A stretch of DNA of 64,000 bases from Actinomycetota bacterium (GCA_018673475.1 JABHCN010000013.1:1-64000); one strand, 5' to 3'; positions 16,500-21,782 are shown, counted from the stretch's first letter. Notes: generated from the sequence alone by a model not told the origin. Numbers and translations: made by a program.

Positions 16500-16865
16500 T
16501 CACAGGGCCACCGCCGTGGCCGTGGCCATCAGGTCGGTGTGGCTGAGGGTCAGGAGCCAGCGCTCCACACCGGCAGCGCTGGCGGCATCGGCCGCTCCGC
16601 CGTGCAGGAGCAGAACAGGTCTGCCAGACGGCTCGCGCACAACCTCGATGTCATACATTGCGACCCCGCCCAGACCGAGACCAAGTGCCTTCAGCACCGC
16701 CTCCTTAGCCGCGAACCGGACCGCATACCTCTCCGTCGGATCTGCCCGCAGGTCGGCGTAGGCACGCTCGGCCGGCCGGAACAACCGTTCCCTCAGGCCT
16801 GGGGTGCGTTCAAGGGAGCGGCGAAAGCGCCCCATGTCGACCAGGTCCGTTCCGATACCTATCAA
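16500..16865 (-). CDS. acpS: Holo-[acyl-carrier-protein] synthase
   Basis: Transfers 4'-phosphopantetheine from CoA to the ACP serine for fatty acid synthesis. I place the start at TTG 16865: it yields MIGIGTDLVDMGRF, the exact family N terminus, follows a strong GGTGGAGG by seven bases, and leaves a 22-base gap after glmS, whereas the longer frame to 16907 overlaps glmS and adds unconserved residues. The 121-residue protein has the metal aspartate in GTDLVD and the RFAAKEAVLKALG motif. Small trimeric group I type. Confidence 0.93.
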   Translation of the reverse strand: MIGIGTDLVDMGRFRRSLERTPGLRERLFRPAERAYADLRADPTERYAVRFAAKEAVLKALGLGLGGVAMYDIEVVREPSGRPVLLLHGGAADAASAAGVERWLLTLSHTDLMATATAVAL

Positions 16866-16887
16866 CGCGGTGCCTCCACCGCCCACA

Positions 16888-19800
16888 TCAGGACGAACCC
16901 TCCCCACGAAGGCGACCGGCTATGCCTCCGACAGGGTCAACAAGGAGGTCCTCGACGGGCAGGTCGGCCAACCGGTCATCGCGCAACTGGGTCTCTGTCT
17001 CACAGACGGCGTCGCGGATCTCGTCGTAACGGTTGCGGTAGCCGTGGAGCACGCCACGCAGGTCATCGGGCGGCAGGTGGTCGTGGAGCACCACATGCAG
17101 CAGGGTCAGACCAGTCGCCTGACCGTCCTTCACCTCGGGGACCAGCACGATCGTTCGGCCGTCCCTGGCTCCCCGGGTGACGAGAACCTCACGAGCCACG
17201 ACCACGCTGTGCTTGGTGCCGCGAAGCGCAGGATCACGATCGGAACGAGACTCGATGCCGGTGGAGATCCCACCCCTGTCGACGATCGCCACCGTTGGCG
17301 TGCTCCCCTCGAGCCCGTCGACCCGGTAACGGGTGAACCCGACAACATCGGCCACCGCAGCATCCAGGTCGGCCAGCAGCCGCAGGGTCCTGTAACTGAG
17401 CGAATCACGCGGTGCGCCGGCATCGAGAACCTCGCGGACCAGGCCAGCGGTCAGGAGCATCTCGTCGGTTCTGGAGATCCCCACCGTCACCGTCTTGGCC
17501 TGGTGCTTGATGGCATCAATCGGTCGGGTCAGTTCCTCGATGGCCTGCGTCAGTGCCCCGGCCAGGTCATCGAGCACCAGCGCCGGTGTGCCGACCGGAC
17601 CAAACTCGAGCTGATAGGACTCCAGTGGCAGGTCACCCGTGGCATAGCGGAACTGCGCCGCCAGGCGGACCGCTGTGGAAGCCTCGAGGTGGCCGTTGAG
17701 GCGTCCCGACCTGAGCTCGTCAAAGAACCGGGATGCCAGCGGCCTCAACTGCAACCTGAGGTCCTCGACCGGGCCGGCGGAGGCACCCGCTGTCAGACCG
17801 GCCGCCGCCAGGCGTTCGATGGCGGCATGCGCCTCTCGCAGCGGGGCGGCCTGGGCGTCGATGGAGCGCGCCGCCTCGTAGCCGAAAAGGTGCCCGACCA
17901 TTGTCGAGAGCACGAACGCCAGACGCGGGTGCACCCGTGGGACGGTCACGACGTCGAGGGCGTCAGGGAACCTGCCCAGGCCTGGATCTGCGTCTGTGAC
18001 AACTATCGGCGCGGCCTTATGGGCCCGGTAGATGGCCACCTCCTTGGCCACGTCATCAGCCGTGGAGCCCACCATGCCGGTTGCACAGACCAGCACCATC
18101 GGCTCGGCCGACAGGTCGATGTGCTTCTTGTCCTCGGTGGCGTCGGCGGCAATGGACTTGTAGCAGAGCTCGGACAGCTTGATCCTGATCTCGCGAGCGG
18201 CGATCAGGTTCGCACCAGTGCCCACGACGGCCCAGTGGCGACGCCCTGGCCCGTATCTGTCTGCGACGTTCCCGATGTGTTCCTGCAGGGCCAACACCTC
18301 GACCATGGCCTCAGGAAGGTCACGCAACCCGTCGAGCAGGTCCGCCCGGTCATCGGCACCGGGAAGACCGGCGGCGTCGGCGAGTGCCGCTGCCAACAGG
18401 ATGCCTGCCACCACCTGGGCGTAGAAGGCCTTTGTCGATGCGACGCTCATCTCAACATCGCGGCCATCGGATGTGTAGAACACGCCGTCGGCCCGGTCTG
18501 TCAGATCGCTGTTCCTGCGGTTCACTATCGCAAGCACCCTGGCGCCGCGTGCCCTCACCAGGTCGACGGTGCGGTTGGTGTCGGTGGTCGTACCGGACTG
18601 GCTGATTGCGACGATCAGGGTGTCGGACATGTCGCGGCGCAGACCGGAGCCCGACAACTCGGTTGCGGCCCTCGCCTCGGTGATCATGTCGGACCCCGTG
18701 AACTCTGCCGCAACCGACAGTGCAACCGCCTCGCCCGCTACCGCTGCGGTTCCCTGCCCGATGATGGTCACCCGGCGGATCCGGCCAGCAGCCAGATCGG
18801 CACGCAGATCAGCTCCGAGGGCACGCTCTCCGAGCCTGACCGTGGACGTGCCGTCGACATCTACGAGCCTGCCCCGCAGGGTGGAGCGGACCGACGCCGG
18901 AGCCTCGCCGATTTCCTTGATCAGGTAGTGCGGGCTGTCGCCACGGTCAATGTCGCGTGTGGTGATCCCGGCCTTCACGAACTCGTGCTCTGCGACCGGG
19001 AGCAGCCGGCCGTCGTAGGACCGCCGGTCGATACCGGCCGGGTCACCGGCCAGCGAACCATCCAACCCGACGATCTGGCCATTACCGGCAACCGGTCCGG
19101 CGCCATCAGACACGGCACCTCCCTCCATTCGAAGGTAGGTGTCTGTCAGCTCCACCACGCCGTAGGGCTCACTCGCAACAATGAAGGCATCTTCGGCAAC
19201 GCCTATGTAGAGGGCCTGGCCACTTCCCCGCAGCGCCAGCCAGAGGCGGTTCGGGGAACCACCCATCGACGCAGCCACGGCGACCGACCCCTCAAAGGCG
19301 GCGACGGTACGTCGGAACGCCTCGTCCTCGGACTCGTCTGCCGCAAGGTGACTGGCACAAAGTGCCGGTACGACCCTCGTGTCGGTCGTGATCTCGGATG
19401 CGACCGAGAGGTCCTCGGATGCGACCAGGTCCGCATGGTTGTCGACATCACCGTTCTGGACGGCCAGCACCAGCGGTGAATGCAGTCCGTCGGCGCGGGT
19501 GGAGTCCAGCGGATGTGCGTTCGCCTCGGAGATGAGGCCGACGCTGGCCCAACGGGTGTGACCCAGCACGGCGCCGCTGACCGACGGGCTGACAAGCAGT
19601 CCGGTCAGCACCGCGTCGGTGGCAAGTGCCGTTCGCATTGCAGCGGTGTTGTCGCCCAGCTCTCCGATCTCCGCTGCAGCCTTCACCACGAACGAGAAGC
19701 CTCCACCGGGGAGGCGTCTGACGGCTCCGCTGCGGAGGAGGGAGTCCTCGTCACGGCCCATCAGGTCGACATCATCGAAGCCGTGGTCCCAGACGGTTAC

Positions 19801-20319
19801 GACGAGGCCCGCCGAATCCCGGCCACGGACCTCCAGCCTGTCAATCGCGGTGAGGGCCTGGTGGACCGAGAGCAGCACTGCACGGCCGGCCTCGCTGGGT
19901 GGCTGGCGCTCCGAGGCCAACGAAGCCACACCGGCATGAGCACCCAGCCGGTCACGGCGCAGCGACCATGCAGCGTCCCTCGCCCTCACCAGGGCGACGT
20001 TCGCCAGTTCCAGGTCGGCCCGCGCACCTTCAAGGACCTTCTCCATCCGAATGAGATGCTCAGAGACCTGTTCCAGAAGTGGATCCAGAAGCCCGATCAG
20101 AGAACCTCCGGCCTCCATCGCCGCCAGCCCGGAAACGCCGCCCAACAACTGATTGGCCATCTCGAGCTGGTCGGCCACCTCCGCCAGGCCAACTTCGTCG
20201 GGGGCGACCACCAACCCCCTGAGAAGGTCCAGAGCCCGACCAACGGGTCCGGTGACATCGGTGACCGTCGGTACCGGCCGAACTGACGGCCGCCTGAGGA
20301 CCGCGATAATGCCGCACAT
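16888..20319 (-). CDS. glmS: Enlarged glutamine-fructose-6-phosphate aminotransferase (GlmS-like, 1143 residues)
   Basis: GlmS makes glucosamine-6-phosphate from fructose-6-phosphate and glutamine; usual length is about 610-625. This protein starts MCGII with Cys2 as nucleophile, then has about 135 mostly helical residues (10-145) not found in canonical enzymes before RLEVRGRDSAG (161-171). HTRWASVG, NGDVDNH and TDTRV complete the glutaminase site. Two SIS domains follow: ISQSGTTTDTN with DVEMSVASTKAF, then LSELCYKSIAADA and EDKKHIDLSAEP, which keep the equivalents of E. coli Glu488 and His504. About 100 extra residues precede KHQAKTVTVG, matching the usual C-terminal AKSVTVE (Lys942 for Lys603). 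A further 197 residues (947-1143) with no recognised domain follow. Catalysis is probably intact. Confidence 0.88.
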   Translation of the reverse strand: MCGIIAVLRRPSVRPVPTVTDVTGPVGRALDLLRGLVVAPDEVGLAEVADQLEMANQLLGGVSGLAAMEAGGSLIGLLDPLLEQVSEHLIRMEKVLEGARADLELANVALVRARDAAWSLRRDRLGAHAGVASLASERQPPSEAGRAVLLSVHQALTAIDRLEVRGRDSAGLVVTVWDHGFDDVDLMGRDEDSLLRSGAVRRLPGGGFSFVVKAAAEIGELGDNTAAMRTALATDAVLTGLLVSPSVSGAVLGHTRWASVGLISEANAHPLDSTRADGLHSPLVLAVQNGDVDNHADLVASEDLSVASEITTDTRVVPALCASHLAADESEDEAFRRTVAAFEGSVAVAASMGGSPNRLWLALRGSGQALYIGVAEDAFIVASEPYGVVELTDTYLRMEGGAVSDGAGPVAGNGQIVGLDGSLAGDPAGIDRRSYDGRLLPVAEHEFVKAGITTRDIDRGDSPHYLIKEIGEAPASVRSTLRGRLVDVDGTSTVRLGERALGADLRADLAAGRIRRVTIIGQGTAAVAGEAVALSVAAEFTGSDMITEARAATELSGSGLRRDMSDTLIVAISQSGTTTDTNRTVDLVRARGARVLAIVNRRNSDLTDRADGVFYTSDGRDVEMSVASTKAFYAQVVAGILLAAALADAAGLPGADDRADLLDGLRDLPEAMVEVLALQEHIGNVADRYGPGRRHWAVVGTGANLIAAREIRIKLSELCYKSIAADATEDKKHIDLSAEPMVLVCATGMVGSTADDVAKEVAIYRAHKAAPIVVTDADPGLGRFPDALDVVTVPRVHPRLAFVLSTMVGHLFGYEAARSIDAQAAPLREAHAAIERLAAAGLTAGASAGPVEDLRLQLRPLASRFFDELRSGRLNGHLEASTAVRLAAQFRYATGDLPLESYQLEFGPVGTPALVLDDLAGALTQAIEELTRPIDAIKHQAKTVTVGISRTDEMLLTAGLVREVLDAGAPRDSLSYRTLRLLADLDAAVADVVGFTRYRVDGLEGSTPTVAIVDRGGISTGIESRSDRDPALRGTKHSVVVAREVLVTRGARDGRTIVLVPEVKDGQATGLTLLHVVLHDHLPPDDLRGVLHGYRNRYDEIRDAVCETETQLRDDRLADLPVEDLLVDPVGGIAGRLRGEGSS

Positions 20320-20441: not shown

Positions 20442-21782
20442 TCAACTGCCCGCCGCGGCACCGGTCCCGGTGCCCGCATCAGCGTTCCTGACGGCCTCAC
20501 AGAGCCTCTCTGCCACGGACTCGGCAGTACCGGCGTCAACCGCCTCGACCATCACCCTCACCACAGGCTCGGTCCCCGAAGGTCTCACCAGCACACGCCC
20601 ATCCGAGCCGAGGCGACCCGCCTCCTCCTGGATCAGGTCTGCGACACCGGCCACAACGGCAGCACCGCTCCCCGACACCGGGATGCTCTCTAGGACCTGG
20701 GGCGTACGGCTCACCAACTCGGCAGCCATGTCTCCGATCGTGCGACCCGCCCTCACCACTGCATCAAGAACCTGAACTCCGGTCAACAGGCCGTCGCCTG
20801 TGGAGGCGAACTCGGGAAACACAATGTGGCCGGACTGCTCACCACCGAGAGACCAACCTCCATTGTCGAGCGCCTCAAGCACGTTGCGGTCCCCGACATC
20901 GGTTTCGTGAACCAGGATTTCGTGATCAGCGAGGCCACGGCGAAGGCCCAGGTTGGCCATAACGGTAACGACGACGGTCGACCCGGTTAACAGCCCCCTG
21001 CCGAGACGGTCAACCGCACAAATGGCCAACAGGTGGTCACCGTCCAACAGCGACCCATCGGAGGCCACAGCCACAACACGGTCACCGTCGCCATCAAACG
21101 CGAGGCCCGCGTCGGCACCCGACGAAACCACTGCATCCTGGAGGCTCTCGGGCCTCGTCGAACCGCACCTCTCGTTGATGTTGCGGCCGTCGGGAGAATC
21201 GTGGATAACGGTCACCTGGGCACCGAGCCTCGACAGAACCCCGCCGGCGCTCAAAGAGGTGGCACCGTTAGCGCAGTCGACAACGAGACGCATCCCGGTA
21301 AGGGCCCCAGGGGCAACTGAGCCCACAACCGAGTCGGCCCACCTTCGGTCCGCTACCTCGGCCCGGGAGTAGTTGCCGGTCGGGTCGAGCCGGGGGCGTC
21401 GGTGCCATACCTCCTGGATCGCTACCTGGGTCTCGTCACCCAGCTTGCGTCCACCCGCAGCAAACAGCTTCACACCGTTGTCCCACCAGGGATTGTGTGA
21501 AGCCGAGACCATTGCACCGGCAACAGAGTCCAGGGCAGCCACACAGGCCACGGCCGGAGTCGGCGCCATACCGAGCGAGACCACATCGACCCCACCGGCG
21601 ACGAAGCCCTCGGCGAGGGCATCCACGAGCTCGGGGCCGGACTCGCGTGGGTCGTGACCGACAACCACCCTGTCTGAGCCCAGGTGGCCGGCCGCTGCGA
21701 AACCCAGACCCCGCACCGAGGCCGCGTCGAGTTCGGTGCCTATCCGTCCACGGACCCCGTCGGTTCCGAAACTGAGATCCAT
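20442..21782 (-). CDS. glmM: Phosphoglucosamine mutase
   Basis: Converts glucosamine-6-phosphate to glucosamine-1-phosphate for UDP-GlcNAc and peptidoglycan. The 446-residue protein has the phosphoserine motif MVSASHNPWWDNGVKLF, the metal-binding loop AFDGDGDRVVAV, the sugar-binding GGEQSGHI and the phosphate-binding RPSGTEPVVRV. It directly precedes glmS, so consecutive steps of one pathway are co-located, as in Mycobacterium. Confidence 0.97.
   Translation of the reverse strand: MDLSFGTDGVRGRIGTELDAASVRGLGFAAAGHLGSDRVVVGHDPRESGPELVDALAEGFVAGGVDVVSLGMAPTPAVACVAALDSVAGAMVSASHNPWWDNGVKLFAAGGRKLGDETQVAIQEVWHRRPRLDPTGNYSRAEVADRRWADSVVGSVAPGALTGMRLVVDCANGATSLSAGGVLSRLGAQVTVIHDSPDGRNINERCGSTRPESLQDAVVSSGADAGLAFDGDGDRVVAVASDGSLLDGDHLLAICAVDRLGRGLLTGSTVVVTVMANLGLRRGLADHEILVHETDVGDRNVLEALDNGGWSLGGEQSGHIVFPEFASTGDGLLTGVQVLDAVVRAGRTIGDMAAELVSRTPQVLESIPVSGSGAAVVAGVADLIQEEAGRLGSDGRVLVRPSGTEPVVRVMVEAVDAGTAESVAERLCEAVRNADAGTGTGAAAGS

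Follow-up and report, generated by a model that had tools for sequence, protein, structure and literature searches.

An enlarged, probable glucosamine-6-phosphate synthase with a conserved, putatively sensory C-terminal domain occupies the glmS slot of many Acidimicrobiia-type bacteria

Many Acidimicrobiia-type bacteria are without a glucosamine-6-phosphate (GlcN6P) synthase, GlmS, of normal size and carry a clade-wide giant variant, which is a form of GlmS rather than a system of a new kind. The GlmS reaction is where a cell commits carbon and nitrogen to the amino sugars of the cell wall, and the enzyme is a drug target. In the window, by which we mean the whole stretch of 64,000 nucleotides analysed, the giant glmS gene lies on the minus strand at 16888..20319 (ATG start, 1143 codons and a stop; coding part 16891–20319). 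As the initial annotation had proposed, it is a real gene, read in a single uninterrupted frame of 1143 residues with the complete GlmS architecture of glutaminase domain, double-SIS isomerase domain and AKTVTV tail. A review gives 589–716 residues for the GlmS subunit (PMC9272926); the window protein and its family (1105–1183 residues) fall outside this range, and the presence of a form of about 1140 residues at the glmS slot across many families extends the known range of subunit size. What is surprising is its size, its either/or distribution and its conserved C-terminal domain; in architecture and residues alike, its catalytic portion is that of GlmS.

Pfam recognised SIS and GATase_6 in the protein, and GlmS models were the top matches in NCBIfam, all of them under their own cut-offs. 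The window protein scores 216 bits against the TIGR01135 equivalog cut-off of 418, which all giants listed likewise fail to reach, so that the giant represents a divergent subfamily and not a member by that model. Single-frame orthologues of 1105–1183 amino acids and the same architecture, with 43–96% identity to the window protein, are found across the order and the class in dozens of independent genomes; Aquihabitans sp. G128, with a complete chromosome, is one source, and others are records titled Ilumatobacteraceae and Microthrix. These bear directly on the concern that a gene fusion artefact or an assembly error, such as a hidden frameshift or join, produced the long chain. The window genome is a draft of 78 contigs, and long spurious frames do arise at high GC, as an antisense frame of 891 amino acids illustrates; but length and architecture recur in dozens of genomes from many families, the complete Aquihabitans chromosome among them, and the motifs stay conserved right to the C-terminus. 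The chance of an artefact is negligible, an explanation that the orthologues already refute. Two open frames lie opposite the gene on the plus strand, at 16804–19479 (891 codons) and 19480–20286 (268 codons); long antisense frames often arise spuriously at about 67% GC.

The window protein has Cys2, RGRDSAG, HTRWA, NAHP, NG, TDT, SQSGT, ASTK, Lys714/Glu717, Lys732-His733 and AKTVTV (Lys942). Across 60 giants the equivalents of Cys1, Arg73, Trp74, Asn98, Gly99, Asp123, Ser347, Gln348, Ser349, Thr352, Ser401, Glu481, Lys485, Glu488, His504 and Lys603 are invariant, with Glu488, His504 and Lys603 represented by Glu717, His733 and Lys942 of the giant. The original observation that Cys2 and the glutaminase motifs are kept, and that residues of the Lys603, His504 and Glu488 types are present, is confirmed, and no key residue is lost on alignment in any of the 60. 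An AlphaFold2 model of the full chain (pLDDT 87, pTM 0.77) matches the folds of both E. coli GlmS (1jxa; Z 39.7, 586 residues aligned) and human GFAT-1 (Z about 41, about 600 residues); by domain, the glutaminase part matches 1xff (Z 30.8, rmsd 1.6, 235 residues) and the isomerase part 2v4m (Z 41.2, rmsd 2.2, 343 residues). Some details depart from the canonical enzyme. The His504 loop, canonically GELKHGPLALI, reads TEDKKHIDLSSEP in the giant, the Ser303-type position is Ala and the His77-type position is Val, so that substrate or kinetics could differ from those of canonical GlmS. The initial suggestion that the enzyme is probably active but regulated or assembled differently agrees with everything observed and is supported.

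Alignment to canonical GlmS and the AlphaFold2 model together define how the additions are distributed along the chain, all of it encoded on the minus strand. Residues 1–10 (20290..20319) form the first glutaminase strand, MCGII, with the nucleophile Cys2 that is invariant in the 60 giants. Insertion 1 (about residues 11–155, some 145; 19855..20289) enters after this strand and before the first helix of the glutaminase fold, and is predicted to be helical (19–36, 42–59, 61–70, 73–96 and 101–134), much as the initial estimate of about 135 helical residues between MCGII and RGRDSAG had it. The glutaminase (Ntn) core (residues 156–400; 19120..19854) carries RGRDSAG, HTRWA, NAHP, NGD, TDT and AEIGELGDN, the last being an invariant motif specific to giants, with about 40 extra residues between RGRDSAG and HTRWA. 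An interdomain linker (residues 401–455; 18955..19119), longer by alignment than that of canonical GlmS, leads into the double-SIS isomerase domain (residues 456–821; 17857..18954), recognised by SQSGT, ASTK, Lys714, Glu717 and His733. Insertion 2 (about residues 822–925, some 104 where about 100 had been noted before AKTVTV; 17545..17856) extends from the last SIS helix to the catalytic tail and is likewise predicted to be helical (825–840, 849–871, 880–894, 899–906 and 912–930). The tail itself (residues 926–950; 17470..17544), LTRPIDAIKHQAKTVTVGISR, includes Lys942, the counterpart of Lys603 of E. coli; beyond it, residues 951–1143 (about 193, against 197 first counted; 16891..17469) make up the C-terminal domain, for which AlphaFold2 and fold searches predict a GAF/PAS-like fold. 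The two insertions and the C-terminal extension described at the outset are therefore all present, and the expansion between RGRDSAG and HTRWA and the longer linker, which that description did not list, are to be added to them.

Mean pairwise identity is highest in the tail (residues 926–950, 91%) and declines through the SIS domain (67%), the glutaminase domain (62%), the C-terminal domain (56%) and insertion 2 (48%) to insertion 1 (35%). The C-terminal domain is conserved nearly like the catalytic cores while insertion 1 drifts, which indicates a selected function of the former. Pfam, NCBIfam and PDB sequence searches returned no match for insertion 1, insertion 2 or the C-terminal domain, and the whole-chain fold search is a slight probe of the two insertions. 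Weak matches to Catalase, MMR_HSR1 and Alpha-mann_mid in the added parts were scattered among members and were taken as chance.

Folded alone (residues 945–1143, AlphaFold2 with 62 sequences), the C-terminal domain gave a model with pLDDT 92.6 and pTM 0.88; its placement is not fixed by the monomer model of the whole chain, in which tail residues 936–950 have pLDDT below 50. Its closest solved structure is the N-terminal ACT/PAS segment of the 180-kDa Mycobacterium smegmatis glutamate dehydrogenase (7jsr residues 174–361; Z 8.8, rmsd 4.8, 164 of 199 residues aligned, 9% identity); next come GAF and PAS/Cache sensors (5w10, 3ci6, 3trc, WalK and chemoreceptors; Z 6–7.2, 80–103 residues). These sensors share with it an antiparallel sheet and flanking helices, although most of the matches leave the C-terminal helices of the giant's domain uncovered. 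GAF, PAS and Cache structures fill the match lists, so that a sensor fold of GAF/PAS type appears the likely class, but the scores are middling (Foldseek E-values about 2e-3), and we therefore describe the domain as GAF/PAS-like without assigning it to either family; across 62 members, no GAF or PAS profile of Pfam matched it even with E allowed up to 10. Among viral models, Foldseek retrieved only weak matches, to GAF and histidine-kinase structures. When 396 genomes of the phylum were searched with the domain, strong matches occurred only at places consistent with giant GlmS, all others having E above 1e-3. Arg1025, Lys1036, Asp1053, Arg1055, Glu1062 and Glu1107 are invariant, charges that would be compatible with a charged ligand, and we read the domain as a putative added allosteric sensor module. 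Sensor folds of the GAF/PAS kind also serve as plain dimerisation modules.

The gene sits in a conserved setting. Directly upstream is glmM for the next enzyme of the pathway (446 aa; 20442..21782, minus strand), and downstream, overlapping the glmS stop, is acpS (135 aa as called; 16500..16907, minus strand), both named from sequence and gene order. Most loci examined show rplM-rpsI-glmM-[glmS]-acpS-nnrE-alr, a slot common to giant and canonical glmS, and a record titled Acidobacteria (L159) has the giant in the same glmM-acpS context. At L182 (genome G708) and L188 (genome G478) the giant gene lies away from glmM and acpS, unlike nearly all other loci examined, which possibly reflects lateral transfer or rearrangement. 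Control by a glmS ribozyme was considered and rejected, the Rfam matches in the window being tRNAs only.

Within the window's order the two forms exclude one another: among 108 genomes with completeness of at least 90%, tallied by hand and counting as canonical any GlmS above the TIGR01135 cut-off, 66 have the giant only, 41 the canonical enzyme only, none has both and one (G215) has neither. G215 is 98% complete and its congener G282 has the giant; an assembly gap is the probable explanation, a real loss a possible one. The enlarged form marks a large part of the order, not one genome. Outside the order, 12 more genomes bear the giant and no canonical GlmS, and G365, whose large genome shows 5% contamination, has both forms. 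A tree built from 598 core columns, its root imposed on canonical GlmS, unites the giants in a single clade (support 0.8) with a very long stem of 2.2 substitutions per site. Giants of other classes in the phylum are nested within this clade, which suggests that the gene may have been transferred outward to them. Among the best 80 of 561 matches in genome contigs are metagenome bins (L094, L097, L134, L157, L111 and L149) that bear the title Bifidobacterium breve or Ferrithrix thermotolerans but carry giant glmS typical of Acidimicrobiia, and these titles look like wrong taxon labels.

To judge from gene content, the giant is most likely the only GlcN6P synthase of the window genome: at 94.6% completeness this has a single SIS place, with no other SIS-domain protein, hence no canonical glmS elsewhere, and no match to NagB, yet it has MurA (511 bits), an enzyme that uses UDP-GlcNAc. 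Neither this genome nor G007, which belongs to its family, yielded a confident GlmU (best about 62 bits), so that the pathway to UDP-GlcNAc is left with a gap; the best match of that search in the window genome (L192) resembles an RmlA-type nucleotidyltransferase. A confident GlmU is lacking in 11 of 59 genomes from the order, irrespective of which form of GlmS they have. The GlmU homologues of the order seem to be without the acetyltransferase end, their matches spanning only model positions 2–344 of 452, where they end, in frames of about 365–440 amino acids, and acetylation may thus be performed by another enzyme. One such short GlmU lies at L197:1396-2586 (+), directly before a prs-like gene.

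We think it reasonably probable that the giant is the organism's only GlcN6P synthase, enlarged once, and that its C-terminal domain is a likely metabolite sensor. Catalytic activity, ligand sensing and signal relay are here deduced from sequence and predicted structure. Cys2 would hydrolyse glutamine and ammonia would pass to the SIS domain, where fructose-6-phosphate would be aminated and isomerised by Glu717, His733 and Lys942. The two helical modules and the GAF/PAS-like domain would have been gained once, giving the enlarged form that now fills the glmS slot of many families. In GlmS, the Lys603-type residue belongs to the C-terminal tail, which lies where the two domains meet, close to the ammonia channel. 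With the C-terminal domain directly behind this tail and a helical module directly before it, the additions would be well placed to control tail closure, and such control would make glutamine hydrolysis responsive to a metabolite signal. The C-terminal domain would most likely be a metabolite sensor that, fused directly to the mobile tail, regulates the flux towards UDP-GlcNAc; the helical modules would probably brace this domain, either against the glutaminase domain or against an adjacent subunit. Feedback through the UDP-GlcNAc pocket of the eukaryotic enzyme was judged unlikely because the pocket residues are not conserved. Among the isomerase-domain positions compared (Arg343, Gly355, Thr447, Thr458, Gly461 and His463), Thr447 and Gly461 are Val in 60 of 60 giants, His463 is Tyr in 54 of 60, Thr458 is Ala or Ser in 55 of 60, and only Arg343 is partly kept. 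A feedback signal would consequently enter elsewhere, and the C-terminal domain is the obvious candidate. The more specific proposal, that the tail-fused sensor exerts direct allosteric control in answer to UDP-GlcNAc or a nitrogen or energy metabolite at a non-eukaryotic site, the ordinary enzyme having been replaced in much of the order, we advance only tentatively.

The main rival to the sensor model is a purely structural role, in which the additions serve to assemble another kind of oligomer, or a scaffold that includes GlmM or some other partner, and the GAF/PAS-like fold does no more than dimerise. Both insertions are predicted to be helical, insertion 1 shows the low conservation often seen in bracing parts, glmM is a constant neighbour, and the tetramer of the large glutamate dehydrogenase is built by its added N- and C-terminal segments (PMC8175468). 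We nevertheless consider this account rather unlikely, since the C-terminal domain has many invariant charges, more than a plain interface usually needs, and since glmM adjoins canonical glmS too, so that the context is not specific to giants.

It is improbable that the protein is a different SIS-type amidotransferase which makes another amino sugar while GlcN6P comes from elsewhere. Its shortfall against the GlmS equivalog cut-off, the long stem between giants and canonical GlmS and the altered Ser303-type, His77-type and His504-loop positions would suit such an enzyme, but it stands in the glmS slot, occurs precisely in those genomes that are without canonical GlmS and has an invariant catalytic set, while no other SIS protein or NagB match offers a source of the GlcN6P for the UDP-GlcNAc that MurA demands. 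That the C-terminal domain is a second enzyme domain, acting for example on GlcN6P, and not a sensor, is very improbable: it has invariant Arg, Lys, Asp, Glu and His residues, and the short GlmU leaves the acetylation step without an obvious enzyme, but its fold matches are sensor domains with none of acetyltransferase type, and the short GlmU also accompanies canonical GlmS and so does not track the giant.

Compared with E. coli GlmS (TIGR01135/PRK00331), the giant has the same domain order, fold over about 590 residues, catalytic residues and glmM-glmS-acpS slot, but has about 1140 residues against about 610, adding two helical insertions, a loop motif and a C-terminal domain. Eukaryotic GFAT-1, which is subject to feedback control (PMC7000685), shares the catalytic architecture and also exceeds bacterial GlmS in size, but has its insertions at other places, and the giant is without the UDP-GlcNAc pocket residues. 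The large glutamate dehydrogenase is similarly an enlarged enzyme of nitrogen metabolism with added putative sensor domains, its ACT/PAS segment having been proposed to sense metabolites (PMC8175468); it differs in adding N-terminal ACT/PAS domains and a helical C-terminal domain, and has no detectable sequence relationship to the giant's C-terminal domain. Our literature search, outside which subscription papers mostly fall and whose silence is weak evidence, turned up no paper describing an enlarged GlmS from Acidimicrobiia. The giant puts an uncharacterised and strongly conserved domain on an essential enzyme, which suggests uncharacterised regulation of the GlcN6P step, and a natural comparison is provided by related genomes within one order, some having the plain enzyme at this locus and others the enlarged one. 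Elsewhere in the window genome, contig C75 encodes a GlxB/MgsA-like glutamine amidotransferase of 299 amino acids (L172:1408-2307, minus strand) that also has RGRDSAG, followed by an open reading frame resembling a glutamate-synthase-type GXGXG subunit (L172:710-1426, minus strand).
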